From assembly GCA_024680795.1 (NCBI GenBank), contig JAILBR010000023.1:1-37562 (forward strand): a stretch of 37,562 bases of DNA, written 5' to 3'. The notes under the pieces were generated by a model that was given only the letters and a program-made list of their open reading frames with translations, did not search any database and was not told the origin of the DNA. Positions within the stretch are counted from its first letter, which is position 1; each line of letters starts with the position of its first letter. The DNA comes from Bacilli bacterium. GTDB taxonomy: Bacteria > Bacillota_I > Bacilli_A > RFN20 > CAG-826. A program made the translations under genes and the position numbers. This document shows, piece by piece, positions 5,590 to 32,531 of this stretch.

Positions 5590-5617
5590 TAAATGCTCAT
5601 ACAAATGAACGCTTTTG

Positions 5618-6184
5618 TTACTTAGATAAGTGAATAAATTCAGAATAAGTGAATCTAGTTAATAAGTCAGCGACTTCATCTAATTCGCCAGTCGCATAAA
5701 TTATCCATCTAGATATCATACCAAAAGAGCCGTTAACGATATATTCGACACCTAGGCGGTTCTTTTTTGTTGGTTTTAACATCTTGTACATCTCGTTTTT
5801 TATTCTATCCAAACTGGTGGAAAGATATCCTCTTAAGTTTGTATCCATTAAGACGATACGATATAAATCGATATTATCGCTGATGATGGTTAGCATCTTT
5901 GTATACATCTTTTTTAAAGATGGACGGGTGATAAATCTCGTGAATAATTTCTCAGCTTCTAATTCAGAGAAGTTTTCACTAAATTGACGATTAATGATTG
6001 ACATAACAATCGCTTCTTTGCTCTCATAATGTAGGTAAATCGTGTTTCTATTAACCATTGCTTTTTCGGCAATATTGATAATTCTTACTTTATTAAAGGG
6101 CATAACTTCGAGTAGTGATAATAAAGCGGACTCGATTGCTCTTTCGGTTTTAATTGTGCGTAAATCTGTTTCCATAATAGGCAT
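5618..6184 (-). CDS. TetR/AcrR family transcriptional regulator
   Basis: The 188-residue protein has a TetR helix-turn-helix at about residues 12-60 (TERAIESALLSLL, INIAEKAMVNRNTIYLHYESKEAI) and a helical, variable C-terminal ligand domain. It resembles the TetR_C-type regulators of Firmicutes. It is divergent from fakB, with 114 bases between them, and such regulators often control the divergent neighbour. A 6-bp inverted repeat lies in that gap. No clear ribosome site precedes either ATG (6184 or 6175), so the start is uncertain by three codons. Confidence 0.8.
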   Translation of the reverse strand: MPIMETDLRTIKTERAIESALLSLLEVMPFNKVRIINIAEKAMVNRNTIYLHYESKEAIVMSIINRQFSENFSELEAEKLFTRFITRPSLKKMYTKMLTIISDNIDLYRIVLMDTNLRGYLSTSLDRIKNEMYKMLKPTKKNRLGVEYIVNGSFGMISRWIIYATGELDEVADLLTRFTYSEFIHLSK

Positions 6185-6206
6185 TTTATCATAAATGTCG
6201 CTTAAT

Positions 6207-6235
6207 AGGCAAATGCTAATAAATACCTATTGCCT
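6207..6235. promoter_or_regulatory. Possible operator between the TetR gene and fakB
   Basis: AGGCAA (6207-6212) and TTGCCT (6230-6235) are a perfect 6-bp inverted repeat in the divergent gap, the place where a TetR operator would be expected. It is a weak case: the arms are short and 17 bases apart. A second hairpin, TGGTG/CACCA (6268-6272/6277-6281), lies just before the fakB ribosome site AAAGGA and may affect translation. Confidence 0.3.
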
Positions 6236-6298
6236 TTCTTTAATTATTAAATTAAGGTTAATAAAGTTGGTGGTAACACCACGAAAGGAAAAAAGTTA

Positions 6299-7204
6299 AT
6301 GAGTAAATTTGCAATTATCGGTGATTCCACATGTGACTTAACTGATGAATTAAGAAAAGAATATGATATCGACTATTGTCGTATGATGGTCTCCTGGACC
6401 AATAAAGAAGGAGTGAATAAAGAAATCTATGCCTCCTTATCTTGGGAAGAAATCTCCCATAAAGACTATTTTGATTTAGTGGCTTCTGGCATCCGTGTCT
6501 TTACTACCCAAGTCACTGAACAAGAATTTGATAAAGTCTTTGAAAAGCATTTAAAAGCCGGTGAAGACCTCTTATATATCGGCTGTTCATCCGCTTTAAG
6601 CGCTTCTGTTTTATTAGGACAAAAACTCCAAAAGAAATATCAAGATAAATATCCAGATAGAAAAATCTACATTCTTGATCCATTAAATTCATGTATGGGA
6701 CAAGGATCTATGCTTCTTTTAGCTAGTGAGATGAGAAAAGATGGCAAGTCTATCGAAGAAATTTATAACTACATCGATGAACATAAATTAGAATGGCATC
6801 AACTCGCTACCGTGGAAAATCTTGATACTCTTAAAAGAGCAGGTAGAGTAAAAGCATCTAAAGCCTTCTTTGGCAACTTATTTGGTGTTAAGCCGATCTT
6901 AATCAGCGACGCAAAAGGCAATAACTACGCGATTGAAAAACAAAAAGGTAGAAGGAACGCTTTATTAAGAATGGTGGAAATGGCCAAAGCTGAAGCAGTC
7001 AACCCTGAAAATCAAATCTGCTGGATTAGTGACGCAGAATGTAAGAAAGAAGATTTAGAACTCCTTGTTGATAATCTCAAATCAGTGGTCAAATTTAAAG
7101 ATGTCAAAGTTGTCCCTATGGGACCAATCATTGGTGCTACCACAGGTAAAGGCACAATCGGAGTATTTTTCCGTGGAGAAAAAGTCACTATTATAGGTGA
7201 ATAA
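6299..7204 (+). CDS. fakB: DegV family fatty-acid-binding protein (FakB)
   Basis: The 301-residue protein opens with FAIIGDSTCDL, the DegV signature, and has the two-domain DegV length (~280-300). Motifs include VTEQEF, YIGCSSALSAS and the LKRAGRVKA stretch typical of DegV. DegV proteins are FakB subunits that hold a fatty acid for FakA, which phosphorylates it to acyl phosphate for phospholipid synthesis. The next gene is the FakA partner, and its ribosome site lies inside the end of this gene, so they are cotranslated. An AAAGGA ribosome site precedes the ATG. The acyltransferase at 2048-3382 fits the same lipid supply route, although it is not in this operon. Confidence 0.88.
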   Translation: MSKFAIIGDSTCDLTDELRKEYDIDYCRMMVSWTNKEGVNKEIYASLSWEEISHKDYFDLVASGIRVFTTQVTEQEFDKVFEKHLKAGEDLLYIGCSSALSASVLLGQKLQKKYQDKYPDRKIYILDPLNSCMGQGSMLLLASEMRKDGKSIEEIYNYIDEHKLEWHQLATVENLDTLKRAGRVKASKAFFGNLFGVKPILISDAKGNNYAIEKQKGRRNALLRMVEMAKAEAVNPENQICWISDAECKKEDLELLVDNLKSVVKFKDVKVVPMGPIIGATTGKGTIGVFFRGEKVTIIGE

Positions 7205-7205
7205 A

Positions 7206-8894
7206 ATGGTTTTAAATAAAATTAACGGCCAAGATTTTAAAAACCTGATAACTTTTGGGGCAAAGAATCTTCGACTTAACTTTAAGGAAGTCGATGATTT
7301 AAACGTTTTCCCAGTTCCTGATGGCGATACTGGCACAAATATGTGCCATACGATTGAAGGTGGAGTGGATAATATTAGAGGGATTGAAAGTAATAATCTC
7401 TCTGATATCGCAAAACCTCTTTCTAGTGGAGCTTTATTAGGAGCAAGAGGAAATTCAGGCGTAATTTTATCCCAAATCATCAGAGGAATTTGTAAAGGCC
7501 TATCAAATAAAAAAGAAGTGACCGCTCTTGAATTAGTGGAAGCTTATAAACTCGGGGTTAAGCAAGCTTATGGAGCGGTTGTTACCCCAGTTGAAGGTAC
7601 AATTTTAACCGTCTTTAGAGAAGCGACTGAACACGTTAGTAAGATGGTCAAAAAATCTAGCAGCATTAATGATTTCTATCAATATCATTTTGAAGAAGCA
7701 AAAAGATCTTTAGCGAGAACCATCGATATCCTTCCGGTTTTAAAAGAAGCTGGAGTTATCGATTCTGGTGGAGCAGGATATGTCTATATTGTCGAAGGAA
7801 TGCTTAAATACCTCAATGAAGAAGAAATCAAGGTCGATGAATCTTCATTAACTCAAAGAGTTAATTCTGGTGAGCAAGAAACAAAACAAATCGACTTCTC
7901 CGCTTTTGGACCAGATGATGTCTTACAATTTGGCTACTGTACCGAATTTATCTTAAGACTTCAAAACTCGAAAGTTGATATTGAGCATTTTGATATTGAT
8001 AATGTGATCAATATCCTTAATGGGGATGATATTAAAGGAGATTCAATCGTTGCTTTAGTCGATGATAGTGTTCTTAAAGTTCATGTCCATACAATGAATC
8101 CTGGTATCGTCTTAGATAAGATGAGACAGTTTGGTGAATTCCTCACCATCAAGATTGAGAATATGGCTCTTCAACATAATGAAAATATTGGTGATAGCCA
8201 GTTAGAAGAAAACCGTCGTAAAGAACATAAAAAATACACTGTGGTGGCGGTTGGCCAAGGTGAAGGTATTGTCAATGCCTTTAAAGAACTTGGAGTTGAT
8301 GTCGTCATTAGTGGTGGCCAAACGATGAATCCATCTACCGAAAACTTCATCAACGCTTTTAAGAGCTTAGATGCGGAAAATATCATCGTCTTCCCAAATA
8401 ATAGCAATATCTTTATGGCGGCCTCTCAAGCTGCAAAACTCTATAAAGGGGCAAATGTCGAAATCGTTAAAACTAAATCAATCGCTGAATGTTATTCAGC
8501 CTTAACGATGCTAGATTTCTCCAGTGATGATTTAACAATCATCCTTGGTAACTTTAGAGAAGTGATTGATAATGTGACTTCTGGTGAAGTGACAACAGCG
8601 ACAAGAGACACAAATATCAACGGCATTGATATCAAAAAAGGTGACTATATCACCTTGATTGATGGAGATTTAGTCTCTGCTAATAAAGATCGAGACCAAT
8701 CAATCTTAAAAGCATTAGAGAATAATAAAGATATCGAAGATAAACAAGTTCTCTTACTAATTTATGGAGAAAATGTTAATGAAGGAGAAGTGGAAGAACT
8801 TATCACTAAGATTAATGACTTATTCCCTTATCTAGAAGTGGGTGCTATCCCAGGTAATCAAGCGATATACGATTATTATTTCTCACTTGAGTAA
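7206..8894 (+). CDS. fakA: Fatty acid kinase FakA (DAK domain)
   Basis: This 562-residue protein carries the DAK-type nucleotide site VFPVPDGDTGTNM (DGDTGTNM at ~39-46), then GARGNSGVILSQ, and a C-terminal DegV-like region. These are the features of FakA/YloV, which phosphorylates the fatty acid bound to FakB. The length is usual for the family (~550). I start at the ATG at 7206, five bases after AGGTGA, rather than the in-frame GTG at 7197. That AGGTGA lies in the last codons of fakB, showing tight coupling. A strong terminator follows. Confidence 0.9.
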   Translation: MVLNKINGQDFKNLITFGAKNLRLNFKEVDDLNVFPVPDGDTGTNMCHTIEGGVDNIRGIESNNLSDIAKPLSSGALLGARGNSGVILSQIIRGICKGLSNKKEVTALELVEAYKLGVKQAYGAVVTPVEGTILTVFREATEHVSKMVKKSSSINDFYQYHFEEAKRSLARTIDILPVLKEAGVIDSGGAGYVYIVEGMLKYLNEEEIKVDESSLTQRVNSGEQETKQIDFSAFGPDDVLQFGYCTEFILRLQNSKVDIEHFDIDNVINILNGDDIKGDSIVALVDDSVLKVHVHTMNPGIVLDKMRQFGEFLTIKIENMALQHNENIGDSQLEENRRKEHKKYTVVAVGQGEGIVNAFKELGVDVVISGGQTMNPSTENFINAFKSLDAENIIVFPNNSNIFMAASQAAKLYKGANVEIVKTKSIAECYSALTMLDFSSDDLTIILGNFREVIDNVTSGEVTTATRDTNINGIDIKKGDYITLIDGDLVSANKDRDQSILKALENNKDIEDKQVLLLIYGENVNEGEVEELITKINDLFPYLEVGAIPGNQAIYDYYFSLE

Positions 8895-8902
8895 AATTAA
8901 TG

Positions 8903-8928
8903 AGCATCATCTTAAGATGGTGCTTTTT
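8903..8928 (+). terminator. Intrinsic terminator after fakA
   Basis: AGCATCATC (8903-8911) and GATGGTGCT (8916-8924) form a 9-bp stem, one pair being G-T, with loop TTAA and a T-run. Confidence 0.85.
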
Positions 8929-8982
8929 AAATAGAAAAATAAGTATTATTATATTTATCAAATATATTAGGGAGTGATTATT

Positions 8983-9843
8983 ATGTTTGATGTAGTTAAA
9001 GAAGTATCAAGTCAATTAGTGACAATGGAACAATATATCAATAATCGTGACCAACAACTTTTACTACGTATCAGCGTTGATATGGAAGTAATCAAAAGAG
9101 TAAAAGATGTGGACTTTACTCACTTCTTATTCACAACAATTAACTCTAATATCCGTAATTATCTAACTGACCAAGCTCTTTCTTTAGAACTTAAATATAC
9201 TTCAGGAAACTATATCATGCTTTCCTCCGTTTTAGCGTTTCTCCAAAACCTAGAAGAATTTGATGATGAAGATTTATCCATTATCAGTAACAATATCGAA
9301 CAAGAAAATATGGAAGAGACATTAACTAATCACTTCCAAAATAAGTATCCCGATAAAGATAGTAAGGCACTTTGTGACAAGGCTAACGAACTAGTGTTAC
9401 CGATTAAATATGCGTTTAGTATTTATACTACATATCGTAACGCAATCGCTGAAGTCACTATCACCCTCAATCATATGAATACTTTTAAAATGATGATGGG
9501 AAAAGAGTTTGTGATGTCGCTTAAAGAAAAGAACGCCTCTAATGGTCCAGAAGATAATAAAGTCACTTCTAGTAGCAAAAGTGGAGGATGTTATATCGCA
9601 ACCGCTATCTATCATTCTTATGACTGTAAAGAAGTATATCTACTTAGAAGATATCGAGATTATTATCTAGCTAAAAGAAGAAGTGGAAGATTATTTATTA
9701 AAATCTACTATAAAGTTAGTCCTACATTAGTAAAACATTTTGGTAACACTAAAATATTTAGAAATATCTTTAAACCTTTCTTAGATAAAAAGGTTGATAA
9801 ACTTATTAAAGAAGGATATTCTTCTCTCCCTTATAACGATTAA
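8983..9843 (+). CDS. CFI-box (CYIATA motif) C-terminal domain protein
   Basis: The 286-residue protein has a helical N-terminal part of ~190 residues that I do not recognise. A C-terminal block begins GGCYIATAIYHSYDCKEVYLL and continues RRYRDYYL...YYKVSPTLVKHF. This is the CFI-box-type domain seen at the end of many unrelated bacterial proteins, function unknown. GGGAG lies 8-9 bases before the ATG at 8983; the in-frame GTG at 8974 overlaps that site and is rejected. The PHP phosphatase gene starts two bases after the stop, so the two form an operon. No signal peptide is present. Confidence 0.65.
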   Translation: MFDVVKEVSSQLVTMEQYINNRDQQLLLRISVDMEVIKRVKDVDFTHFLFTTINSNIRNYLTDQALSLELKYTSGNYIMLSSVLAFLQNLEEFDDEDLSIISNNIEQENMEETLTNHFQNKYPDKDSKALCDKANELVLPIKYAFSIYTTYRNAIAEVTITLNHMNTFKMMMGKEFVMSLKEKNASNGPEDNKVTSSSKSGGCYIATAIYHSYDCKEVYLLRRYRDYYLAKRRSGRLFIKIYYKVSPTLVKHFGNTKIFRNIFKPFLDKKVDKLIKEGYSSLPYND

Positions 9844-12246: not shown

Positions 12247-12276
12247 TTGACACACGCACATACACGAATGTATATT
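12247..12276 (+). promoter_or_regulatory. Promoter of module 1
   Basis: A perfect TTGACA (12247-12252) and TATATT (12271-12276) with an 18-base spacer. Transcription should start near 12283, just before the aptamer. Confidence 0.8.
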
Positions 12277-12285
12277 ACAAATGTC

Positions 12286-12356
12286 AAAAGCAAAATCACA
12301 GTGATGTGGTGACGCAAAGCTATAGGGTCTTATACGTAGAGATAGCCAGTTGCCGG
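12286..12356 (+). promoter_or_regulatory. GEMM-I (cyclic-di-GMP-I type) riboswitch aptamer, copy 1, with A20
   Basis: The core is near consensus: GC at 12290-12291, then P1b ATCACA/TGTGGT (12295-12300/12305-12310) closed by the GNRA tetraloop GTGA. The invariant GACGCAAAGC follows (12311-12320), then P2 GCTAT/ATAGC (12319-12323/12342-12346) containing AGGGTCT, then CAGTTGCCGG. The base just 5' of the G21-C22 pair partners, position 20 in Vc2 numbering, is A (12289) where c-di-GMP aptamers have G. G20 contacts the ligand; G20A is the hallmark change of GEMM-Ib cGAMP sensors, and in Vc2 it gives dual c-di-GMP/cGAMP binding. The family call is firm; the ligand is not. Confidence 0.9.
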
Positions 12357-12389
12357 AAAAAATAAAAACGGTTAACTGGGTTTATTTTT
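12346..12389 (+). terminator. Riboswitch-controlled terminator, copy 1
   Basis: CCAGTT (12346-12351) pairs with AACTGG (12374-12379) and CCG (12353-12355) with CGG (12369-12371), followed by GTTTATTTTT ending at the start codon. The 5' arm is the 3' part of the aptamer, so aptamer and terminator exclude each other. Ligand binding should therefore prevent termination and switch the genes on. Confidence 0.75.
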
Positions 12390-13301
12390 ATGGGAAAGAA
12401 TTTGACGAAAGACAAGAAAAGCTTACTTAAAATTGTAGCGGCAACTTCGGTTGCCATTTTCTCGTTATTGTCCGTGTGCACAGGTGCGTTCGCGTGGTTT
12501 TTAAGTGTGAGAGATCAAAGTGCTGCGTCTAGTTCTTTCTCTGTTAAATCTTATGGAAAGTTTTCTTCGCTAAAATTTCATACATTTGAAGATTCTAGAA
12601 CTGTTTCATCTATCAAATATTTAGACTTCAATGGTGGAACCCCAACCGGCAGTATTACATATGATTGGGAAAGAAATGCATGTAATAATCCTGTTGGCAA
12701 CACAAATATCGTTTTGGATCAGTATGATCCACTAAATCAAAGCCAACCATTATTAGCTATTTTTGAATTGGATAGAGAATACAATACTTCTCTTGATGGA
12801 AGTGTGATGATAAACGCTATTGCATCTAAGAATGATTTTTTAGGAAAAACTAAAAATGATGGAACAACCACATATCGCTTAGGTGTTTTAAATGACCCAA
12901 TGCTTATGCATTATGATAATGGGGTTTATTATTATCCACTTAGCTCTGCTGCCACATTTAAATGTAGAGGATTCTCTGAAGATGAATACGAAGAATGGAT
13001 TTCATCTTGGACATATAGTGATGATGATTATGTTTCCGGATTCTATTCTCTTGCAGATAATTCTTTGACTAATTCTAGAGAAAAGTTTGTTCAAATCACA
13101 AATGAGGTTCCTTCTTTCCACCAAAACATAAATATTTATAACAGTGGTGAAGGACACAATATCAAATATATTGCAGTTGTTATCGACTACGATGCTGATG
13201 CAGTCGAATACATATATTCATCTTTCCTCGGTAATCATTATTTAGAATCAACTGGGTATCATTTGAGTTTTGTGTGTGACTGGGATTGGGAGATAATCTA
13301 A
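12390..13301 (+). CDS. TasA/SipW-type secreted protein, copy 1
   Basis: This 303-residue protein has a basic start, a hydrophobic segment (~12-34) and the motif TGAFAWFLSVRDQSAASSSFSVKSYG. That F/Y-A-W/Y-F-S/T arrangement is the SipW-dependent signal region of TasA/camelysin-family proteins, which form extracellular fibres in Bacillus biofilms. The rest is beta-rich and unrecognised. The C-terminus IYNSGEG...IDYDADA..FVCDWDWEII is strongly conserved in the copy at 18113. It lies directly under a GEMM riboswitch and one base before the giant-protein gene. No good ribosome site precedes the ATG at 12390, because terminator T-run abuts it; a TTG at 12402 after GGGAAAG is an alternative. Fibre formation is inference. 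Confidence 0.72.
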   Translation: MGKNLTKDKKSLLKIVAATSVAIFSLLSVCTGAFAWFLSVRDQSAASSSFSVKSYGKFSSLKFHTFEDSRTVSSIKYLDFNGGTPTGSITYDWERNACNNPVGNTNIVLDQYDPLNQSQPLLAIFELDREYNTSLDGSVMINAIASKNDFLGKTKNDGTTTYRLGVLNDPMLMHYDNGVYYYPLSSAATFKCRGFSEDEYEEWISSWTYSDDDYVSGFYSLADNSLTNSREKFVQITNEVPSFHQNINIYNSGEGHNIKYIAVVIDYDADAVEYIYSSFLGNHYLESTGYHLSFVCDWDWEII

Positions 13302-13302
13302 T

Positions 13303-16300
13303 ATGAAAAAAGTTGGATTATTCAAAGCTATTCTCTTAGCGGTCACCGTCTTAAGTGGTGCGGCTACTGTTGCCGCTACTGCATCATGGTTTATGCCTAA
13401 AGCACAAGTTGAATCCGATAAAGATAGACTTGGTGGATCAACCATGGGTGCTTATTTTGCTTATGGGCAAGGAACAATTAGCCAACCTTATGGAATTACA
13501 AAACCACGTCATTTATACAATTTAGCGTGGTTGCAGTATCTAGGTTTCTTTAAAACACAAACATATTTTGAACTTTCTGATAACATCGATATGTCAGGTT
13601 GGACTCTTCCTCCAATTGGCACTCCTAAAAACCCATTCGTTGGGAACTTTAATGGTCAGGGGTATGTCGTTACCGGCTTAACTGTATCTAATGATTTTAG
13701 TGAATACGGCAATCAACACCCAGCTTCAGTTGACGCTTCAGTATTTAATTCTGGCGATAATCCTGCAACATCAGAAACAACAGAAACCAACAATTATCCA
13801 AACATAGTCGGCTTCTTTGGTGTTGTTGGCAATTATAATAATGCATTTACTGGCACATATAATTCATCAATTAATGAGATGAAAAATATTGGTCTTTCAG
13901 ATATTACCGTTCATACCGAAGCATCGAACTCTTTAATCGGTGCTGCTGCTGGATATGTCGATGCGAAAATGGAAAATGTTGCTGTTGATACTGCAACTTT
14001 ATCAATCGATAGTGGCGCTAATGCATTAACAAGTGGGCCAACAACAAAATTATCTGACTTTTCTATTGTCGGATATACGACTAGAACTAAAAAAATAAGA
14101 AAAGCATCTGAAACCATTTATGACGTTAGTATCGATCATGAAAGCGAATTTAATGTCCCTAGTGGCGGTGATGGAGTTGGTTGGGGTGGATCTATAAATA
14201 TGTATGATCTTCACCAGAGACTTGTTTCTGTAAAAAATAACACCAGAACAGGATCTAACGGGTTTACGAATAGAAAACAAAACTATAATTATAGGACTTA
14301 TTGGACCAGCACACCATCTTTAGATGAAAGCACTCCAGCAACTTTAAGCCAATATGATTCTGATGAAGTAGAAGGCGCGAACGATTATCTATCTTTCTAT
14401 AAGGCAAATGAAAGTGAGAGAGAATTCGGAACATATGCTCTTTATAATAGAATTGATAATGGTACTGTTAATAATCAATATGTATATTTGATGGGTGGTC
14501 AGAACCAGGTCACAACTTTCACGGAATACTATTTAAGTACGCAAATTACTGATGGAAGTGGACATTTTATGTATGTTGCGACACCTAACAATAATGCATC
14601 TGTTACAAATACAAATAATCAAAACATTGCTACTGGTTGGGTAGTACCTTCTAAATCAACTGGCAAGATATACACTGTAAGAAATAATACAAAGTATTAT
14701 TTATCATTTAGTGATGCTAATATGAGTCTTATTTTAAGAACTGGAGAAGCCAATGGAAAAGACTGGACTAGAGACGATTTAAAAAACGACCAAGGCGATG
14801 TCTTAATGACCAGATTTACTACCACAAACGTTAATGATCAAGGTAAAACTATAACTTATTATCTCGAATATGATGATGGCTGGAAACTGACTAAAATGCC
14901 AAGCCCTCCAGACAACATTGGTGTTGAACCACCTAATCCAAGTAGTCCAGATGAATTATTATGGGCAGGAAAAGATAAATATAGGGAACATGGCTATCAA
15001 ATTAGTTATGACAGAAGTACTCAAGATAACACTTTAATATCTTACATGAATGACAACTTTGAGACAGGTGACGTTGGTGGAGTATGGGGTATTGGTGGCG
15101 ACGAGCCATTTTTCACTTCAATTGATAATGAATATACATATGGGTGGCAAATAACTAATTTAACCAATAACGGCACAACAAATATTAAATTTGGAAGCAA
15201 TTATGTGCAAATCAAAGAAACTGATGTTAGTTTGACTGGCTGGATTAAAAACTGGAAAAACCAGATATCTTTTACAAGCAATTCTAGCTCTCCGTATTAT
15301 TGTAACTGGACTGCGAACAAAAGTAATACAGTAGAAGTTGGAGAAGATGGATTAACAATTGAATATTGGTCTTTTAAACTTACTAAAAGATCTGGATACA
15401 GGGGTAACACCACTTATTATCTAGCACCTAGCGTTGGCTCTAGTGGTTGTGCTTTTACGCTTAGTACCACTCAAACTTATTTAAGGATAGTCTCAAACGA
15501 TCAAATCATTTCAATTCATGATGCACCAATTCAAACTACCTATAATCAGCTTCATGGTAAACATGAAGAATGGGTTACCAATACTCAAACCTATGAGCAA
15601 GAATATAATGGCTATCTTGATGATTTAGAAAATACATATGCTATAAATCCAAATGTCGATGGTGTTGTTAGAGGCCCAGATACATACACTGATAGAAATA
15701 ATCCAAACAACGATAGAATGAAGTATTCTTCTGACGATACATCATATATTCCTTTAAATGTTGTTAAGGATGGGACATACTCGAGCATGGCTAATTATGA
15801 GCCGCAGAAGTCCAATACCGGATATATTGTTGGTGGTTCAAAACTGAACGCCAATACAAATGTATTCAATAGTAACGTAGCAGGCATTCGTGTTGCTTAT
15901 TATGATAAATCAACCTATCTCGATGAAAATAGTTATTTTTATGATGATAATTTAATTGCAAACGTTTACACAATTAAGGACAAAGAAGCATCAGCTTATT
16001 CAAATGAACTATTGACTAATCCATCAGCAAAAAGAAGCATGGTATCTGCAATACAAGAGAATCCGAACACTAATAATCCAACCGAGGATAGATCTGCATA
16101 TAAAAAATATTATCGTTCATTTAAAGATTTCCAAACAAAATTAGCTGATAGTGGCAACAATATTTATGGGCTCCATTTTGATGATGCCCAAATTTCTATG
16201 GACAATATAGTCGTTGCGGACAAAGTTCAAATATCAAACTTCTATAACGCAAACAGTTCTGACAAAACATATACAAATTATGAACTTCCTGTTAATTCTA

Positions 16301-17865
16301 TCGATTTTAACTTGAATGATAGAGGATATATTAACTTCTTTGCTGGTACATATTTCGCTGGTGGTGCTGAAGATATTGTTAATTCTTTCTTCTCAATTCA
16401 CCAAGTTATTAGGGATCCAAACAATGGAATGAAGATTAAAGAAATAAAAGAAATTCAAGCCGTTTATTCCGATGGCATAGAAGGGCACTCTTATATTCTT
16501 CAATATAAAGGTTCTCCAATTCAATTATCTATTCCTTATTTGTATAAGGATGGAACTAGATATAACCTCAATCCAAATGGTGAGGCTTCACAAACATATT
16601 TGCCTAAAGATGTACATATTGAAGGGTCAACGATGTATTCTTCTAAATATAGTGATTATGTCAATAATTATGGCTATAAAATGGTTTTCAATACTGATTG
16701 GATTACTAATTTTACAGATGATCCAAGTACCGGAGCTCATGAAATGAATCTTGATATATCAAACAGCAAAAACCGTCTATTCTATTTTGAAATTCCTGTC
16801 AATGAAGGTGAATATTGTTTAGGATCTGTTCCTGGTGGATTGGGTGCTTATTTGCTTTATTTAGACATTGGTGCTAACGCATCAAAAACACAAAGAACTA
16901 CCACAGTCGAACATTTCAATCACGAAGAATTTGTTTACGTTTATCCAGCAGGGGTGGCCTATATTGATATGTCTTCTTCTGCTAGCGATTATACTTCTGG
17001 TGTTAAATACATATCGGAATATGACTACACAAACCAAGCATTTACAACGGATAGAGATATCGATGTAATCGATTCAAACTCTGTTTGTATTGAAATCAAT
17101 GTGGGTTATACTGGCGACTTTGTTGTTGAGAGAACTAGCAATCAAGTTGCTCTTACAAAAGCTGTAACTGGTTCAGATGCTATATATCAAGGCGATGAAG
17201 TCACTTCGTTTATCAATAAATCTGACTCTTCTCCAATTAGTGTCACTCCATTGTCAAGTGAAACTAAGGAAACAGTTAAGATGTGTTATTATGATTTTAG
17301 TGCCTATTTGGAAGATTGGACAATGACCGAAATCATTGATACCAGCACTAATGGTGGTGCTTATTCTAGACAAGTAATTCAACATTTGTATTACGGAACA
17401 GATAAGCAAAAGAATCTGAGATCAACAGAAGCTTCTGAAATAGAATTGATTAATGTTTATGATGTTATCAAAAACAATCAAGGAGAGATAACAGGAGTTA
17501 AGAAATATACTTCTTCTGAATTCATGGATAGATCAGTGCTTGTCATTAATAACAATGACATCAGTTCAACAAAACTTATTGAATTAGAGATTAGGCAAGA
17601 TGCAACGCCTAACACAAGTGGATATATCATAACTCCAACATTTAATTACACGGTGGTAGTTGATCCAAATACATCTGCAAATATTATAGAATTCGATAAT
17701 TACATGCTCGAGTTCCTCGTTGCTGGTAATCAATTGAAAGTTAAAGTTATTGAGGTTGCAAACCAAGCTAATTATAAAGAAGTCTATGTTGGAACAGTTT
17801 CGGCCGGTAATCTTATACTTACAACAGATGCCGGAAGAACAATAACTATCAACGTTAACACATAA
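13303..17865 (+). CDS. Giant secreted surface/matrix protein, copy 1
   Basis: This 1,520-residue protein has an N-terminal hydrophobic segment (~6-28) ending ATASWFMPKA, again like a SipW-type signal. The conserved GSTMGAYFAYG follows (~45-55), then PYGITKPRHLYNLAWLQYLG and a segment DNIDMSGW..PIGTPKNPFVGNFNGQGY (~93-121) like GLUG-type surface domains. A ~500-residue middle differs most from copy 2. A conserved C-terminal third includes IDFNLNDRGYINFFAGTYF and GEYCLGSVPGG..GAYLLYLDIGANA. No LPXTG motif or C-terminal membrane helix is visible, so it is either held by its N-terminal helix or released. GGGAG lies 17-20 bases before the ATG. Adhesin or matrix role is inferred. Confidence 0.72.
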   Translation: MKKVGLFKAILLAVTVLSGAATVAATASWFMPKAQVESDKDRLGGSTMGAYFAYGQGTISQPYGITKPRHLYNLAWLQYLGFFKTQTYFELSDNIDMSGWTLPPIGTPKNPFVGNFNGQGYVVTGLTVSNDFSEYGNQHPASVDASVFNSGDNPATSETTETNNYPNIVGFFGVVGNYNNAFTGTYNSSINEMKNIGLSDITVHTEASNSLIGAAAGYVDAKMENVAVDTATLSIDSGANALTSGPTTKLSDFSIVGYTTRTKKIRKASETIYDVSIDHESEFNVPSGGDGVGWGGSINMYDLHQRLVSVKNNTRTGSNGFTNRKQNYNYRTYWTSTPSLDESTPATLSQYDSDEVEGANDYLSFYKANESEREFGTYALYNRIDNGTVNNQYVYLMGGQNQVTTFTEYYLSTQITDGSGHFMYVATPNNNASVTNTNNQNIATGWVVPSKSTGKIYTVRNNTKYYLSFSDANMSLILRTGEANGKDWTRDDLKNDQGDVLMTRFTTTNVNDQGKTITYYLEYDDGWKLTKMPSPPDNIGVEPPNPSSPDELLWAGKDKYREHGYQISYDRSTQDNTLISYMNDNFETGDVGGVWGIGGDEPFFTSIDNEYTYGWQITNLTNNGTTNIKFGSNYVQIKETDVSLTGWIKNWKNQISFTSNSSSPYYCNWTANKSNTVEVGEDGLTIEYWSFKLTKRSGYRGNTTYYLAPSVGSSGCAFTLSTTQTYLRIVSNDQIISIHDAPIQTTYNQLHGKHEEWVTNTQTYEQEYNGYLDDLENTYAINPNVDGVVRGPDTYTDRNNPNNDRMKYSSDDTSYIPLNVVKDGTYSSMANYEPQKSNTGYIVGGSKLNANTNVFNSNVAGIRVAYYDKSTYLDENSYFYDDNLIANVYTIKDKEASAYSNELLTNPSAKRSMVSAIQENPNTNNPTEDRSAYKKYYRSFKDFQTKLADSGNNIYGLHFDDAQISMDNIVVADKVQISNFYNANSSDKTYTNYELPVNSIDFNLNDRGYINFFAGTYFAGGAEDIVNSFFSIHQVIRDPNNGMKIKEIKEIQAVYSDGIEGHSYILQYKGSPIQLSIPYLYKDGTRYNLNPNGEASQTYLPKDVHIEGSTMYSSKYSDYVNNYGYKMVFNTDWITNFTDDPSTGAHEMNLDISNSKNRLFYFEIPVNEGEYCLGSVPGGLGAYLLYLDIGANASKTQRTTTVEHFNHEEFVYVYPAGVAYIDMSSSASDYTSGVKYISEYDYTNQAFTTDRDIDVIDSNSVCIEINVGYTGDFVVERTSNQVALTKAVTGSDAIYQGDEVTSFINKSDSSPISVTPLSSETKETVKMCYYDFSAYLEDWTMTEIIDTSTNGGAYSRQVIQHLYYGTDKQKNLRSTEASEIELINVYDVIKNNQGEITGVKKYTSSEFMDRSVLVINNNDISSTKLIELEIRQDATPNTSGYIITPTFNYTVVVDPNTSANIIEFDNYMLEFLVAGNQLKVKVIEVANQANYKEVYVGTVSAGNLILTTDAGRTITINVNT

Positions 17866-17879
17866 TTCAATTGACCAAG

Positions 17880-17917
17880 AGTGGTATATCAAAAAAGATA
17901 TATCACTTTTATTTTTA
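17880..17917 (+). terminator. Intrinsic terminator ending module 1
   Basis: AGTGGTATATC (17880-17890) pairs with GATATATCACT (17897-17907) in an 11-bp stem with loop AAAAAA and a T-run. Confidence 0.85.
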
Positions 17918-17957
17918 GACCTTATCGAGATATTTTTATTTAGCAATTTTTTAGGTA

Positions 17958-17986
17958 TTGACTAAGTTATATCAAAGATATATATT
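17958..17986 (+). promoter_or_regulatory. Promoter of module 2
   Basis: TTGACT (17958-17963) and TATATT (17981-17986) with a 17-base spacer, in the same position relative to the aptamer as in module 1. Confidence 0.8.
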
Positions 17987-17991
17987 ACAGG

Positions 17992-18063
17992 TGTCAAAAG
18001 CAAAGCCACAGTGATGTGGTGACGCAAAACTATAGGGTCTTAGTAAAGATAGCCAGTTGCCGG
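17992..18063 (+). promoter_or_regulatory. GEMM-I (cyclic-di-GMP-I type) riboswitch aptamer, copy 2, with A20
   Basis: This is nearly the same RNA as copy 1: G21-C22 (18000-18001), P1b GCCACA/TGTGGT with GTGA tetraloop, GACGCAAAAC, AGGGTCT, then ATAGCCAGTTGCCGG. Position 20 is again A (17999). It differs from copy 1 at the base of P2, where AACTAT replaces AGCTAT, so the closing pair with C18053 becomes A-C. The P2 apical loop is shorter. P1b starts with a G-T instead of an A-T pair. These changes could alter affinity or switching relative to copy 1. Confidence 0.9.
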
Positions 18064-18092
18064 AATAAAATTGGGCAACTGGTTTTGTTTTA
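18053..18092 (+). terminator. Riboswitch-controlled terminator, copy 2
   Basis: A perfect 9-bp stem, CCAGTTGCC (18053-18061) with GGCAACTGG (18074-18082), is followed by TTTTGTTTTATT. The 5' arm again belongs to the aptamer, predicting an ON switch. Unlike copy 1, about 20 bases and a strong ribosome site separate it from the start codon. Confidence 0.85.
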
Positions 18093-18112
18093 TTGGGAGA
18101 CTTAGGGAGAAA

Positions 18113-19030
18113 ATGGGAGACAAACTAGGGAGAAAAAAATCTTTAATTAAGATTGTTGCGGCAACTTCGGTTGTCATTTTCTCTTTACTATCCGTGTGTG
18201 CTGGTGCATTCGCGTGGTTCTTATCCGAAAGAGACCAAAGTGCTGCATCTAGTTCCTTCTCTGTTAAGTCTTATGGAAAGTTTGAATCCATCTCCTTCCA
18301 TAGATTGACCAGCAAAAACGTTAATGTTGCTAATGATAGTACAAGCACTTTTAGTTTTGAAAAGACTGCTTACGGTGCTATTACTTATAATTGGGACACT
18401 GGTAAATATATTCCATCAGGAACAAGCACTAGCCTAACACTTCCTCAATACGATCCTCTTGATCAACATCAACCAGTATTAGCTGTCATTAAGCTAAATA
18501 GAGAATATGACACTGATGGTGGAAGTGTCGTTATTAAAACTACAACTACAGTGGATGGTTTCTTAGGCAAACAAAACGAAACCACTCACGTTAATATTTA
18601 TAAACTTGGAAATCCTTCTGACCCAACTGAAGCTGCTAAGCCAACTTTAAAAATGACAAACGATTACGATGATGGTGTACATGATCGTTATCCTCTTAGC
18701 TCTGTAGCAAATATGAGATGTCAGAATTTCTCTACTACAGAGTACACAACATGGGCTAATGGCTCTACTTTAGATTTAACACTTGGTAACTTAACCGGAA
18801 AGAAATCATTTGTTACTGTTGATAATGCTTTAGGAACATCATCGTTTACCAAGAGCATTGAAGTCTATAATAGTGGCGAAGGTAAAGATATCCAATATAT
18901 TGCTGTCATGATTGACTATGATCCTGACGCAATTGAATATACTTATTCAACATATCTTGGTAATGATATCATGGAATCATATAACTATATTTTGTATTTC
19001 CTCTGTGACTGGGAATGGGAGATTTTCTAA
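18113..19030 (+). CDS. TasA/SipW-type secreted protein, copy 2
   Basis: This 305-residue paralogue of 12390-13301 is almost identical through the export region (KKSLIKIVAATSV, then GAFAWFLSERDQSAASSSF, then VKSYGKF). It diverges in the centre, then is again conserved at IEVYNSGEG...IDYDPDAIEY...CDWEWEIF. The export motif fits the SipW-dependent TasA/camelysin type. I start at the ATG at 18113, three bases after AGGGAGA, and not the in-frame TTG at 18071, which lies inside the terminator loop. The strongest selection seems to act on the two ends, as expected for a subunit whose signal and assembly contacts are fixed while the exposed core varies. That reading is inference. Confidence 0.74.
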   Translation: MGDKLGRKKSLIKIVAATSVVIFSLLSVCAGAFAWFLSERDQSAASSSFSVKSYGKFESISFHRLTSKNVNVANDSTSTFSFEKTAYGAITYNWDTGKYIPSGTSTSLTLPQYDPLDQHQPVLAVIKLNREYDTDGGSVVIKTTTTVDGFLGKQNETTHVNIYKLGNPSDPTEAAKPTLKMTNDYDDGVHDRYPLSSVANMRCQNFSTTEYTTWANGSTLDLTLGNLTGKKSFVTVDNALGTSSFTKSIEVYNSGEGKDIQYIAVMIDYDPDAIEYTYSTYLGNDIMESYNYILYFLCDWEWEIF

Positions 19031-19032
19031 TT

Positions 19033-22000
19033 ATGAAAAAAGTTAATCTCTTCAAACTCGTTATCATGGCCTTGATTGGAATTTCTTCAGCTTCTGTTGT
19101 GGCTGCAACTTTATCTTGGTTTATGCCTAAAGCAACTATTACTAGAACACAAGATAAGTTAAATGGCTCTACAATGGGCGCTTACTTTGCTTATGGTAAT
19201 GGTATTCCAAAACAAAGCGAACAAGATGTTGTTAATAGAGTTTATGGTATCACCAAACCTCGTCACTTATACAACTTAGCGTGGTTACAATATCTTGGTT
19301 ATTTTGAAGAACAAAGTGGCTACCAATATTATTTTGAAATTGGTGATATGGTGGATGAAAATGGTAATCCAACCGATGTTCTTGATATGGAAGGTTGGGT
19401 TATTCCTGCTATCGGAACTGAGGAACATCCATTTATTGGTAACTTCAATGGTAACGGAAAAATAATTGCTAACTTAACTGTTTCAAATGATTTTGGCGAT
19501 TTTTCTAACCACCCTGCCACAATTACTGAAGCAAACTATACTCAAGCTCATATCTTGGGTCTTTTTGGTGTTGTTGGTAATTACGCTCACCAAGTTACTC
19601 CTACTGAAGGAACTAGCTTAACTTATGGTTATTATACAGATAGAGCGTGTACTATTCAGGCAATTGGTACTGCGAATGGTTCTATTTCATATTGGAGAAA
19701 ATACGATGAGGCAAATGAAACTGGCCCAAGATCATATAGTTCTTCGATTAATGAATTAACAAATACCGGCATAACAAATATTACAATTACAACAGCTTTA
19801 GATGATACATTGATTGGCATGGCAGCAGGATATATTAACGGTAATATGTCTAACATCGCTGTCGATGCTGGTACTTTTAATGTAACTACAACAAGCAATG
19901 AAAACGCCACGACTTCTTATGGTGGTTTTACAAGCAATATTTCTGACCATAGTGTTGTTGGATATACTACTAACAAAAAGAATATTAAGAAAGTCACACA
20001 CGACTTATATGATGTTAATGTTTCTGCCAACCATGAATTTAACGCTTCTGATAGCGGTGATGCTCAAGGTTGGGGTGGCTCTATTAATATGAAAACAATT
20101 TATGAGAGACTATATGCGATTAAAGCTAAGGGGTTGGTCTCTACGGAAAATTCTTTTGGATATAAAAGAGTGACTACATATTATGATGGGGTTAAGGATG
20201 ATTCAAGTGAAACCGATACCTACACTTCAAATTATATGCAATCTTATCATGGATATAATGTCAGTGGTCATGAATATATTGGAAATTATTTTTACATGAA
20301 TAGAGGTTCAAGTTCTGACCAATGGATGTATTTGTCTGGTGGTCATTATGAAAATAGTACGTACAACAAATACTACGAACATGAAGGATATCACATTACA
20401 GATGGAACCAATTATTTAGATTATCGTGGAAGTGATTTAGAAAATTATAATGGCGATAGTCCAAATACAATGGCGTTACCATGGGATTTTGTTTCTGCCG
20501 GAGGTTCAAGTTATTATATTAGAACCAATTACAACAACGCTACCAACAACCGTTATTTGTATAACAGCAATGGCGAATTAAAGATTGCTAGTGGAACCAC
20601 AACAAACTCAAATGCAATATGGGAATTTACTGAATCAGGCGAAGATGACTTAATTATTTCGAATGGCAATAAGAAAATCTATTATTATAATGGTTCATGG
20701 CAATTGATTCCAACAACCGACCAGACGGACAATTATTACATTATTAAAAGTGGTAGCAATTATATAAGTAAAAATAGCTCAAATAATAGTAATGTTTCAA
20801 ACACAACAAGCGAGTCTGATGCCGCACGTTTTTACATTGAACCAAGTACAAATAATCTCTATTTTATGAATGGAGGCACAAAGCAATATTTGGCCATCTA
20901 CTACACTTATACAACAAACTGGCGTAATAGGGTAGAAAGTGATTCATATGCTATTTGCACAACAAACAATTATAATCAGTCTGTTGATCAAGGTGGATAT
21001 TATTGCTTCTCGGTTGATGTAAACAATAAGATAAAATCTACTGTTCATGTTGCTGATAATGGCAGTGGTGGGTGGTTTGGATCAATCACATTTACGGATA
21101 CTGTTAACTATTTGTATTACAGTGGAGGATGGTCGCGAACAACTACAAGCGGCAGTTCTTTAACGCCAACATCAAAAAGCGAAACCGTTCAATATTCTAA
21201 TTACAAATTAGTAAATACTTTCAATGATGACAAAGTTAAAGTACTTGGGCCTGATTATTATCCAGATTCTCCATCATCAGTAAATAAAATGTATTTTGAT
21301 TATGATGATACTACTTATTTTCCTCTTAATGTTGAACATGATGGTAAAAGTTCTTACGTAGAAAATGGTGTAACGATAACCCCTAATTTAGAGAACAAAG
21401 AAGGAGTGGAAAGCGCTATTGCCAATGGCAACTTTGATCCTAAGGATAGTAATACTGGATATATAGTTGCTGGGTCAGATTATAGTAGTATCACCGGCAA
21501 TAATCCTTCTATGTCTGGAAGCTCAAGCTCAGATACAAATAATAGAAATAACATCAGTAAAATGCGTATTTCATCATACGCAATATCAAATGTCAGCGGA
21601 TCATTCAATCCTGCCAATGCTTCTGTTGTTCTTGATACGGATTTTCCTCATTCTAACATATTAACAATTCTTCCTAATGGAACATTGACAAATATTGGTC
21701 AGGTGTATGGGAATGACAGCACGACCATCTACTCTAGGTACAAAAAATCAAGAGAGTCATTCTTTGAGAATGCGCTAACAACAAATACTGTTAATGGTGG
21801 AACAAAAACTTATTCGAAAGCCAGTAATATTTATGGTTTGCACTTTATGGATACGTCCATAAACATTAATAGCGTTGTCAATGCTTCAAAAGTTAGTGTT
21901 TTAGGAAATAAATGCGATAATTATCAAATGCCGGTGCATAGTATCGATTTTAATCTAAAGCAAAAGGGTGTTATTAACTTCTTTGCTGGAACGTATTTCA

Positions 22001-23505
22001 CAGATAACAATTCTTTCTTCTCTTTACATGAAATTATTAGAAATAATGATGCTGTTCAAAAGAAAGATGGCAGTGGAAACGTAATTGAAGGACAATACAC
22101 AAGTTACAATACCATCAAGGAAATTAAAGAAATTGAAGAAATATTCATTACAAGTGAAGAAGTTGGTGATAAAACATCAAAATACTCTGTTATATATAAA
22201 TACAAAGGTAAAACTGGTAATGAAATGTATTCAGTTCCATTCAGAATTGATGGAAATCAAAATAAGTTTGTGATGAATATGAGTAACACTAATGACAACA
22301 TTACGCCTTATACTTATTCAACAATGGGGACTGATGATTTTAATAGTTATGTCACTACTTATGGATATGTTTCTAGATTTAAAACAAGTCAAATTGGAGT
22401 TAATTCAGGCATTTCGAGCAATTCAAACAAGATATTCTATTATGAATTCCCAATGAATCCAGGTGAATACTGTTTAGGATCTGTTTCTGGTGGTACTGGT
22501 GCTTATCTCCTCTATCTTGATATTGGTGCTAACGCAGCGAAAACTCAAAGAACTATTTTCTATGAGCACTTCAAATATACTGATTTGACATTTGATTATC
22601 CTGTTGGTGTTGCTATCGTTGCAACTTCAACTGTTGCGGATAATGTTGAAAATGGTACAGCTCTAGATGAAACAAATACAGCTAATACTGTCGTGAAAGC
22701 TGGTTATAAAGGTGCGTTTAGTATCACAAGGAGTGGTAATAGTGTTTCGATATCTAGAGAATCTAGTTTTACCGCTAATGCGAAACCAACACTGGTTGGA
22801 GAACTGATGTGGGACAATTCACATCAGATGTATAATATACATATTCCACTGAGTGACGGAGACACGGGCTTCGAGAGCAACAAGAACCTGACTAGCGAGA
22901 TAACTGCTAAAGAGACACATATAACTGATACAAGAAGAGTTTATTATGTTGACTATAACGTCAACCTTGATGAATACACAAAAACTCAAATTATTGATAC
23001 AAAAGTTGATAATGGTGCGGTTAATAGAACATATTATCAAGAGTATTCAGACGGTACTTCATCAACTAATGTTGATAATATTAAGGTATATAACACAAAT
23101 GGTGGTACAAGATATACTTCATCAGAATTAGCATATTCAGAATCTGCCGGAGTTGATAATTCCAATGTTAAGACATATGATACAACTCTTGGCATTAACA
23201 ATACCATGATTCTCAAATTCAAATATGAAGAACCATCAGGTGCTGAGGTTACAGCGGAACTTGTTCTATCGTATGAGGCCGATGGAACATATTCACCAAA
23301 GGTATATCAGAAATTTAAAGAGTATGAATATACAGTATCATGTACCGGAAGTGATATTGTAATTACTATTATTGATAGGAGCAGTGGAGAAGGTGCTAAA
23401 GTCATTAAAATTAACACCGAATCAATTACAAAGACTGGGGCCGGGACTCAACAAAGTCCTTATGTGATAACTCCAACAACAATTTCGGTAACAAAAACTT
23501 CTTAA
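19033..23505 (+). CDS. Giant secreted surface/matrix protein, copy 2
   Basis: This 1,490-residue paralogue of 13303-17865 has the same order: hydrophobic N-terminus ending AATLSWFMPKA, GSTMGAYFAYG, YGITKPRHLYNLAWLQYLG, a GLUG-like PAIGTEEHPFIGNFNGNGK segment, a long Asn/Ser/Tyr-rich middle and the conserved C-terminal IDFNLKQKGVINFFAGTYF and GEYCLGSVSGGTGAYLLYL blocks. The middle (~480-720) has runs like YYIRTNYNNATNNRYLYNSNG and YYIIKSGSNYISKNSS that suggest lectin-like beta-trefoil repeats, a weak call. There is no LPXTG and no C-terminal helix. I start at the ATG at 19033 to match copy 1; the in-frame ATG at 19015 overlaps the upstream gene. GGGAG at 19017-19021 is the likely ribosome site. 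Confidence 0.73.
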   Translation: MKKVNLFKLVIMALIGISSASVVAATLSWFMPKATITRTQDKLNGSTMGAYFAYGNGIPKQSEQDVVNRVYGITKPRHLYNLAWLQYLGYFEEQSGYQYYFEIGDMVDENGNPTDVLDMEGWVIPAIGTEEHPFIGNFNGNGKIIANLTVSNDFGDFSNHPATITEANYTQAHILGLFGVVGNYAHQVTPTEGTSLTYGYYTDRACTIQAIGTANGSISYWRKYDEANETGPRSYSSSINELTNTGITNITITTALDDTLIGMAAGYINGNMSNIAVDAGTFNVTTTSNENATTSYGGFTSNISDHSVVGYTTNKKNIKKVTHDLYDVNVSANHEFNASDSGDAQGWGGSINMKTIYERLYAIKAKGLVSTENSFGYKRVTTYYDGVKDDSSETDTYTSNYMQSYHGYNVSGHEYIGNYFYMNRGSSSDQWMYLSGGHYENSTYNKYYEHEGYHITDGTNYLDYRGSDLENYNGDSPNTMALPWDFVSAGGSSYYIRTNYNNATNNRYLYNSNGELKIASGTTTNSNAIWEFTESGEDDLIISNGNKKIYYYNGSWQLIPTTDQTDNYYIIKSGSNYISKNSSNNSNVSNTTSESDAARFYIEPSTNNLYFMNGGTKQYLAIYYTYTTNWRNRVESDSYAICTTNNYNQSVDQGGYYCFSVDVNNKIKSTVHVADNGSGGWFGSITFTDTVNYLYYSGGWSRTTTSGSSLTPTSKSETVQYSNYKLVNTFNDDKVKVLGPDYYPDSPSSVNKMYFDYDDTTYFPLNVEHDGKSSYVENGVTITPNLENKEGVESAIANGNFDPKDSNTGYIVAGSDYSSITGNNPSMSGSSSSDTNNRNNISKMRISSYAISNVSGSFNPANASVVLDTDFPHSNILTILPNGTLTNIGQVYGNDSTTIYSRYKKSRESFFENALTTNTVNGGTKTYSKASNIYGLHFMDTSININSVVNASKVSVLGNKCDNYQMPVHSIDFNLKQKGVINFFAGTYFTDNNSFFSLHEIIRNNDAVQKKDGSGNVIEGQYTSYNTIKEIKEIEEIFITSEEVGDKTSKYSVIYKYKGKTGNEMYSVPFRIDGNQNKFVMNMSNTNDNITPYTYSTMGTDDFNSYVTTYGYVSRFKTSQIGVNSGISSNSNKIFYYEFPMNPGEYCLGSVSGGTGAYLLYLDIGANAAKTQRTIFYEHFKYTDLTFDYPVGVAIVATSTVADNVENGTALDETNTANTVVKAGYKGAFSITRSGNSVSISRESSFTANAKPTLVGELMWDNSHQMYNIHIPLSDGDTGFESNKNLTSEITAKETHITDTRRVYYVDYNVNLDEYTKTQIIDTKVDNGAVNRTYYQEYSDGTSSTNVDNIKVYNTNGGTRYTSSELAYSESAGVDNSNVKTYDTTLGINNTMILKFKYEEPSGAEVTAELVLSYEADGTYSPKVYQKFKEYEYTVSCTGSDIVITIIDRSSGEGAKVIKINTESITKTGAGTQQSPYVITPTTISVTKTS

Positions 23506-31670: not shown

Positions 31671-31745
31671 AATATACGGGGTTTTCATTGAATATATTTA
31701 TTATTCAATTATAATTAGTATATCTGAGTGATCGGAGGAATTTTT

Positions 31746-32531
31746 ATGGTAGTTTCATTCGTATGGGAAAATGTGCCAACCCTTAACTGGATTCTCTCAC
31801 TAGTTCTCATCGTCGCAATATATGGTCTCTTATTCTATATGTTCGCTAAAATAATTAAGCGAACCACAGGTTATATCATGCTAGCGGTTTCCGCTACAGC
31901 AGGATTATTAACATTTATCTTTTATCTCCAATATATCTTTGCTTTTGTCGAAGTATTAACTGGAGTTGGTATCACCATCTCCCTATTCTCAAACTTAGGA
32001 GATTTAAGACAGTTCTTAGCTAACCCATTTAAGACAAGCCGTATCAAAGCTTCGAAAGTGGCAGTGGAAAAGATTTATAATCGAGAAGAACTTTATAAGA
32101 TTATCGAAACCACAGTTATTAACCTTTCTAAAACTAGAACTGGGGCAATCATGACATTTGAAAAGAATACTTCTTTAGCGGATGTTATGAAGAATGGTGT
32201 ATTCGTAAACGCACCTGTTACTAGCGAACTTTTAACCACAATTTTCTATCCAGGTACCAGACTTCATGATGGCGCAGTCATTATCAAAGATAATGTGATT
32301 GTCGCTGCTGCAGTTTTCTATACCCCAACCACTAAACCGTTTGCTGGTAAATATGGTTCTCGTCATAGAGCAGCGATTGGTATTTCTGAAATCAGTGATG
32401 CAGTCACTATCGTTGTTAGTGAAGAAACTGGACGTATCTCCTTTGCGGTCAATGGACAACTCGATACAGTTACCCAAGAAACCTTCTTAAGAGCGTTTGA
32501 AAACTACATGGATGGAGTTACTGGTGAATAA
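31746..32531 (+). CDS. cdaA: Diadenylate cyclase CdaA (c-di-AMP synthase)
   Basis: This 261-residue protein has three N-terminal membrane helices (to ~residue 85) and a DAC domain. The catalytic DGA motif is at 175-177 (TRLHDGAVIIKD) and the RHR motif at 206-208 (GSRHRAAIGISE). It condenses two ATP to c-di-AMP, which controls potassium and osmotic balance in Firmicutes. I start at the ATG at 31746, six bases after GGAGGA; the in-frame GTG at 31728 is upstream of that site. The next gene overlaps by one base (TAATG). The usual partners cdaR and glmM are absent. Confidence 0.93.
   Translation: MVVSFVWENVPTLNWILSLVLIVAIYGLLFYMFAKIIKRTTGYIMLAVSATAGLLTFIFYLQYIFAFVEVLTGVGITISLFSNLGDLRQFLANPFKTSRIKASKVAVEKIYNREELYKIIETTVINLSKTRTGAIMTFEKNTSLADVMKNGVFVNAPVTSELLTTIFYPGTRLHDGAVIIKDNVIVAAAVFYTPTTKPFAGKYGSRHRAAIGISEISDAVTIVVSEETGRISFAVNGQLDTVTQETFLRAFENYMDGVTGE

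Follow-up and report, generated by a model that had tools for sequence, protein, structure and literature searches.

Riboswitches for cyclic di-GMP (c-di-GMP) over adhesin genes, SipW-type export and McrB ATPases have each been described singly. The TapA-SipW-TasA system of Bacillus subtilis and the SipW-BsaA system of Clostridium perfringens are multi-protein surface operons in which small beta-sandwich exported proteins carry SipW-style signals and are served by a dedicated SipW-type peptidase. Control is by SinR or a two-component system, and TasA is a SipW-processed jellyroll protein (PMC9674648). In Clostridioides difficile, c-di-GMP riboswitches lie directly over surface-attachment genes (CD2831, CD3246 and PilA1); these are class II ON switches, with sortase anchoring or type IV pili. 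Every working class I switch of C. difficile is of the OFF type, and the class II switches there are ON (PMC6200980). We analysed a 37,562-nucleotide stretch of DNA from a Bacilli bacterium (assembly GCA_024680795.1, contig JAILBR010000023.1), hereafter the window, in which two adjacent units at 12247-23505 each combine a promoter, a class I (GEMM-I) riboswitch aptamer, a terminator, a small exported-type protein and a giant partner protein.

These units resemble the SipW systems in their SipW-style signals, in the dedicated SipW-type peptidase of the genome, in the predicted beta-sandwich of the small protein and in their multi-protein surface operons. Unlike those systems, they have a giant beta-helix/trefoil partner, an AAA+ ATPase and riboswitch control, and the small protein has no sequence link or confident fold link to TasA. 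A c-di-GMP riboswitch directly over candidate surface-attachment genes is shared with the C. difficile adhesins, but the aptamers here are class I, and no LPxTG/sortase motif or C-terminal membrane anchor was found in 94 complete giants. We think it fairly probable that each unit is a surface-attachment operon switched on by c-di-GMP and served by dedicated export or assembly machinery. A literature search of incomplete coverage returned no paper joining c-di-GMP riboswitches to TasA/SipW systems in this way; within that coverage, no description was found of the three combined with this unnamed pair of proteins in Bacilli, Mollicutes and Clostridia.

Riboswitch leaders and their linkage to the gene pair

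Both leaders showed the same order of elements on the forward strand, as originally predicted. A consensus sigma-70-type promoter opens unit 1 at 12247..12276 (-35 TTGACA at 12247, -10 TATATT at 12271, spacer 18 bases) and unit 2 at 17958..17986 (-35 TTGACT at 17958, -10 TATATT at 17981). The aptamers follow at 12279..12357 and 17989..18064. Covariance-model search with Rfam RF01051, proposed as a check on the GEMM-I assignment, scored them at 59.8 bits (E 2e-9) and 59.0 bits (E 3.1e-9), far above the gathering score of 35. They share with the family the core, helices P1b, P2 and P3, the equivalent of the invariant A47 and the conserved CC at the 3' end; they depart from it in an A for G at the position of Vc2 G20 and in a terminator formed from the aptamer's own 3' strand.

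A terminator hairpin with a U-run was located at 12346..12389 (+) in unit 1 (duplex -14.9 kcal/mol) and at 18053..18094 (+) in unit 2 (duplex -21.4 kcal/mol), where it overlaps the aptamer 3' strand. In minimum free energy folds of both window leaders, the 5' arm of the terminator was the aptamer's own 3' strand (CCAGUUGCC), paired with a downstream arm and followed by the U-run. The same fold test found this overlap in 58 of 98 distinct leaders, compared to 8.0 ± 2.9 (maximum 14) after dinucleotide shuffling of the downstream sequence. Bound aptamer and terminator are thus mutually exclusive, and the predicted logic is ON. RNA polymerase starting at the promoter would transcribe the aptamer; without ligand, the 3' strand would pair downstream and form the intrinsic terminator, and with ligand the aptamer would hold that strand, block the terminator and allow the operon to be read.

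To determine the distribution of the module, a profile of the two window giants was searched over 144 related genomes. Giant relatives were present in 33 of the 144, at loci in which GEMM-I was followed by a small exported protein and then by a giant of 750-1620 residues. GEMM-I stood at the gene pair in 30/36 of these loci, and some of the other loci were cut by contig ends. A wider N-terminal profile searched over a public genome set gave 67 named loci, several of them in genomes common to the first set. Their hosts were rumen and gut Bacilli and Erysipelotrichaceae, Acholeplasmatales, Anaeroplasma and Clostridia (Oscillospiraceae, Lachnospiraceae and others). The cultured type strain Anaeroplasma bactoclasticum ATCC 27112 (L126) carries the same leader and gene pair, which makes the system testable.

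Trained on 45 aptamers, a covariance model detected 67 GEMM-I elements across the named loci and placed one at the pair in 49 of the 67 loci. Rfam's own model gave 14 hits, in eight of the nine named loci checked. Across the 67 aptamers, 97.6% of cells were paired, with 163 double changes compared to 43 in shuffled alignments; the covariation score of the GEMM-I helices in the relatives was 0.527, compared to 0.185 shuffled. Repeated co-occurrence of riboswitch and pair, which had been proposed as a check, was therefore observed in both sets. The opposite outcome, a pair usually unlinked and lacking export, was not: the two genes were linked in many lineages, and an export-type hydrophobic segment was found at the N-terminus of both the small and the giant proteins. 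Class I riboswitches are thereby linked to a pair of exported-type proteins absent from the family databases.

Several leaders were more elaborate. Tandem GEMM-I aptamers, about 40 to 400 bases apart, preceded one operon in L049 (5008-5086 and 5499-5578) and in L104 (5784-5859 and 5898-5973). Two aptamers before the same operon type (L053:9845-9920 and L056:13584-13660) scored best to RF03167 (c-di-GMP-I-GGC), just above its cut-off. A run of three consecutive cow-rumen-1 RNAs (RF02946) closely preceded a GEMM-I/giant operon in L064 (9364-10034, reverse strand), and a single one was found at L050:16177-16239 (reverse strand). A second secreted-looking protein of about 1,300-1,660 residues followed the giant in the same operon in L060, L062, L064, L070, L071 and L072.

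The small and giant proteins and the history of the two units

Small protein 1 (303 residues) is encoded at 12390-13301 (+) and small protein 2 (305 residues) at about 18113-19030 (+). The TTG start listed for the second gene (18071) sits within the terminator, and its start is likely ATG 18113, preceded by AGGGAG. In the first gene, ATG 12390 comes directly after the terminator U-run without a clear ribosome-binding site (12381-12404), and an in-frame TTG at 12402 is preceded by GGGAAAG. An AlphaFold2 model of small protein 1 (mean predicted local distance difference test score, pLDDT, 89) placed a helix at residues 8-43, spanning an A-W-F motif, before a beta-sandwich. Almost every small protein listed, and both window pairs, had an [AGS]-W-[FYLM] motif after a hydrophobic stretch. 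The window pairs thus carry the SipW-type export signal, a hydrophobic helix followed by a site of the A-x-A-[WF]-F type. Small and giant proteins would exit by the Sec route behind these signals, and the SipW-type peptidase encoded in the genome would probably cleave them.

The small proteins had originally been labelled TasA-like, and this label was not supported. With an E-value limit of 0.01, none of 64 small proteins matched the camelysin/TasA families of Pfam or NCBIfam, profile searches at E 10 gave no match between them and TasA chains in the Protein Data Bank (PDB), and Foldseek returned no match to the small-protein model at E < 0.001. The best structural rows from VIA-align were CBM32/discoidin-like, at a Z of about 5 that is too weak for assignment, and TasA was not among the rows shown. 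The searches thus gave no support for membership in the TasA/camelysin (PF12389-type) family. The A-x-A-W-F export motif and a beta-sandwich are common to the small protein and TasA. The general plan may resemble TasA, and the small protein could at most be called a candidate fibre subunit.

Giant 1 (1520 residues) is encoded at 13303-17865 (+) and giant 2 (1490 residues) at 19033-23505 (+), for which ATG 19033 is a better fit as start than 19015. Like the small proteins, the giants fitted no Pfam or NCBIfam family, in agreement with their earlier description as a family without a name. Single-protein sequence searches against Pfam, NCBIfam and PDB gave nothing useful. A profile of the giants' N-termini matched PDB 3n6z, a putative IgA1 protease of Bacteroides ovatus, at E 2.3e-10. 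For giant 1, the sequence and an AlphaFold2 model of residues 1-1200 (mean pLDDT 64, with values of 80-90 in most of its N-terminal domain), read with VIA-align, indicated an export segment, a GLUG-like beta-helix at 46-273, a beta-trefoil at 411-533 and a conserved C-terminal block at 800-1200. The model aligned with 3n6z at Z 13.5 (root-mean-square deviation 2.7 over 160 residues, 24% identity), and its residues 411-533 aligned with beta-trefoils, including ricin-type lectins, at Z 10-12. The trefoil was assigned with VIA-align because the Foldseek E-values were weak. No common Pfam family for the GLUG-like helix was found among 40 giant-family members. The N-terminal beta-helix is the feature shared with 3n6z; the middle and C-terminal parts differ, and no protease domain was found in the giants. 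From the model, the variable trefoil module probably binds carbohydrate. Each giant would display the GLUG-like helix and the variable trefoil and bind glycan or surfaces, while the small beta-sandwich protein would probably retain the giant, chaperone it or polymerise with it.

Overall identity between the giants was 37%, and it was distributed unevenly: 66% up to residue 80, roughly 50% from there to residue 320, 18-31% at 320-800, and 54-63% in patches near 960-1040 and 1121-1200. Conserved flanks around a divergent middle had been predicted and were found, but the flanks are not nearly identical as had been supposed. The suggestion of alternative exposed parts agrees with a divergent middle that includes the predicted lectin-type trefoil. 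The proposed fibre/adhesin system gained from the variable middles and the riboswitch-pair link, and not in its fibre component. The small proteins were 52% identical over 269 columns, and DNA identity between the units was patchy, with short islands of 74-91%.

Phylogenies of the two genes disagreed. Small genes 1 and 2 were sisters (support 100/99). In the full-length tree, giant 2 joined the giants of L078 and L080 (100/100) and not giant 1; these are Erysipelotrichaceae-type genomes outside the window's genus, and giant 2 was 48% identical to the L080 giant. A tree of the giants' N-terminal regions alone did not resolve the relation of giants 1 and 2. The disagreement suggests either exchange of the giants downstream of a leader and small gene that had been duplicated, or homogenisation of the small genes. 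The tandem duplication first proposed thus holds for the leader and small gene, and the full-length giant tree argues against simple duplication of whole units. Tandem module copies were also seen in L053/L097, L116, L106 and L072, which indicates that module doubling is common.

A putative machinery operon and c-di-GMP genes outside the window

Stronger evidence for a system than the window contains came from elsewhere in the genomes, in the form of an AAA+ ATPase, a SipW-type peptidase, and EAL and riboswitch-controlled GGDEF genes. Further GEMM-I copies in the relatives headed a recurrent operon encoding a membrane protein of about 270 residues, two to four proteins of about 350 residues with A-W-Y/F signals, an ATPase of about 505 residues with N-terminal membrane segments, a cytosolic protein of 490-890 residues and a SipW-type peptidase. 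In the window genome, four A-W-Y/F proteins, the ATPase, the cytosolic protein, the peptidase and an EAL protein are encoded together as an operon at about 47652-59500 of contig C8 (genome G000), next to genes for another EAL protein and for a member of the nucleoside phosphorylase family. A riboswitch before this set could not be seen, as the contig ends just upstream. Giants adjoined the machinery in L085, L123, L134, L139 and L144, and in L123 GEMM-I lay directly before the peptidase, ATPase and cytosolic genes. The SipW-type gene of L198 was followed by an EAL gene (7653-9200), a nucleoside phosphorylase-family gene (6907-7653) and a second EAL gene (3867-6974), all on the reverse strand; genes of similar size and start came after the SipW-type gene in L085.

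The ATPase matched AAA_5 (PF07728, E 5.3e-6, over the cut-off) and, by profile, McrB chains (E 4.7e-5). Among 22 members of the ATPase family itself, column identity averaged 57%. Its Walker A motif (GISGTGKTS) and Walker B region (LDEMNLAR...FAEFLS) resemble those of McrB (PDB 6hz4). It differs from McrB in having N-terminal membrane segments in place of the DNA-binding domain, and its neighbours are a signal peptidase and exported proteins and not a nuclease (a McrC-type gene was not searched for). If this ATPase drives export or assembly, that would be an unexpected use of a McrB-type motor. A relative's SipW-type protein matched Pfam S26 at E 0.003, and the window-genome peptidase was homologous to it by iterated profile.

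The window genome encodes 12 GGDEF domains, as well as EAL and HD-GYP genes. Besides the two window aptamers it has two more GEMM-I copies, each ahead of a GGDEF gene, and in one case an HD-GYP gene lies nearby. Across the 144 genomes, GEMM-I was present in 32/33 genomes with the giant and 15/111 without it (Fisher p 2e-19), a strong AAA+ ATPase match in 30/33 and 17/111 (p 1e-15), and GGDEF in 33/33 and 29/111 (p 1e-15), in tests that ignore shared ancestry. At least two GEMM-I genomes counted as giant-negative (L166 and L169) encode giant-like proteins missed by the first profile. Within the window's genus, GEMM-I and a strong ATPase match were found in exactly the same eight genomes, among them that of the window, and all carried the giant; one incomplete genome had the giant alone.

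In the proposed mechanism, this second operon would add the A-W-Y/F-signal proteins, the membrane-anchored McrB-like ATPase, its cytosolic partner, the SipW-type peptidase and the EAL protein, and would process, export or assemble the small and giant proteins. Riboswitch-controlled GGDEF genes would close a feedback loop, and the EAL genes of the machinery operon would tune the messenger. It is a serious possibility that this machinery represents an export or assembly system of a new kind. A broader proposal is more tentative, and we hold it at slightly less than even confidence: an undescribed, c-di-GMP-licensed surface export or assembly system found in Bacilli of the gut, in wall-less Mollicutes and in Clostridia. 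In it, A-W-F-signal proteins and giant beta-helix/lectin adhesins may be exported or polymerised by the ATPase, cytosolic partner and peptidase, with adhesin middles exchanged between loci and GGDEF and EAL genes in the regulon. Such a c-di-GMP regulon would be a coherent one in lineages, wall-less Anaeroplasma among them, where almost nothing is known on attachment.

Alternative readings and neighbouring genes

Several observations weigh against a c-di-GMP-activated attachment operon with its own machinery. GEMM-I was missing at the giant in 18 of the 67 named loci, mostly Clostridia. The window-genome SipW-type peptidase reached 21.1 bits to TIGR02228, where the cut-off is 51.85. AAA+ paralogues occur in giant-negative genomes, and the co-occurrence tests carry the shared ancestry noted above. 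Between residues 536 and 800 the model of the giant is of low confidence, in addition to its weak Foldseek E-values. The remaining two points concern the switch itself. Class I riboswitches are uniformly OFF in C. difficile (PMC6200980), whereas ON is predicted for the window leaders. If the switches here were OFF as well, the proteins would be made at low c-di-GMP, in a dispersal or motile state; we consider this improbable, as the aptamer 3' strand serves as the terminator 5' arm in both window leaders and in more than half of the leaders folded, so that a bound aptamer excludes the terminator. The other point is the A at the Vc2-20 position of both window aptamers, where G is expected for the c-di-GMP-specific subtype. 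Vc2 G20 contacts the ligand, and A there goes with recognition of 3',3'-cyclic GMP-AMP (cGAMP) in some GEMM-I RNAs; A is also found at this position inside the Rfam family, so that it concerns ligand preference and not GEMM-I membership. An operon of this GEMM-Ib type would answer another messenger, and most relatives also carry A (29 A to 16 G among 45 aptamers, and 38 A to 28 G among 67 in a set that overlaps the first). However, sister copies in the L053 genome differ, one with A and the other with G, suggesting that the position drifts within one regulon. The GGDEF specificity site, readable in eight domains of the window genome, was GHxxGD in all eight, without the Ser/Thr of hybrid cGAMP synthases, and the genome has EAL and HD-GYP genes. 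The GGDEF motifs and the A/G mixing make cGAMP quite unlikely as the ligand, and c-di-GMP the better guess.

The nature of the two proteins allows further readings. The small protein could be a genuine fibre subunit of the TasA/BsaA type, with the giant as the adhesin at the fibre tip, in a SipW-TasA matrix operon under c-di-GMP control. The SipW-type motif in nearly all small proteins, the predicted beta-sandwich with its long N-terminal helix and the SipW-type peptidase gene close by in relatives would fit. The failed matches to TasA families and chains and the CBM32/discoidin-like structural rows do not, and we know of no TasA operon with an AAA+ ATPase. We regard this reading as somewhat unlikely; it is compatible with a c-di-GMP-switched attachment operon, and both can hold together. 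Alternatively, the giants could be enzymes or nutrient-binding proteins for host glycans, with trefoil and CBM-like folds that capture substrate. Glycan-degrading enzymes often contain beta-trefoil and CBM32-like folds, and the carriers are rumen and gut bacteria, but no catalytic domain was found in the giants by Pfam, NCBIfam or Foldseek, and c-di-GMP control and exchanged middles better fit attachment. We give little credence to this possibility and prefer a surface-attachment function for both units.

Other genes in the window were noted on either side of the two units. A FakB-like DegV protein and a FakA-like kinase, forming a fatty acid kinase pair, are encoded upstream at 6299-8894 (+); after them, at 8974-9843, comes a protein whose C-terminus carries a CFI box. 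Downstream, a CdaA-type diadenylate cyclase at 31728-32531 (+) places a second cyclic-dinucleotide system close by.

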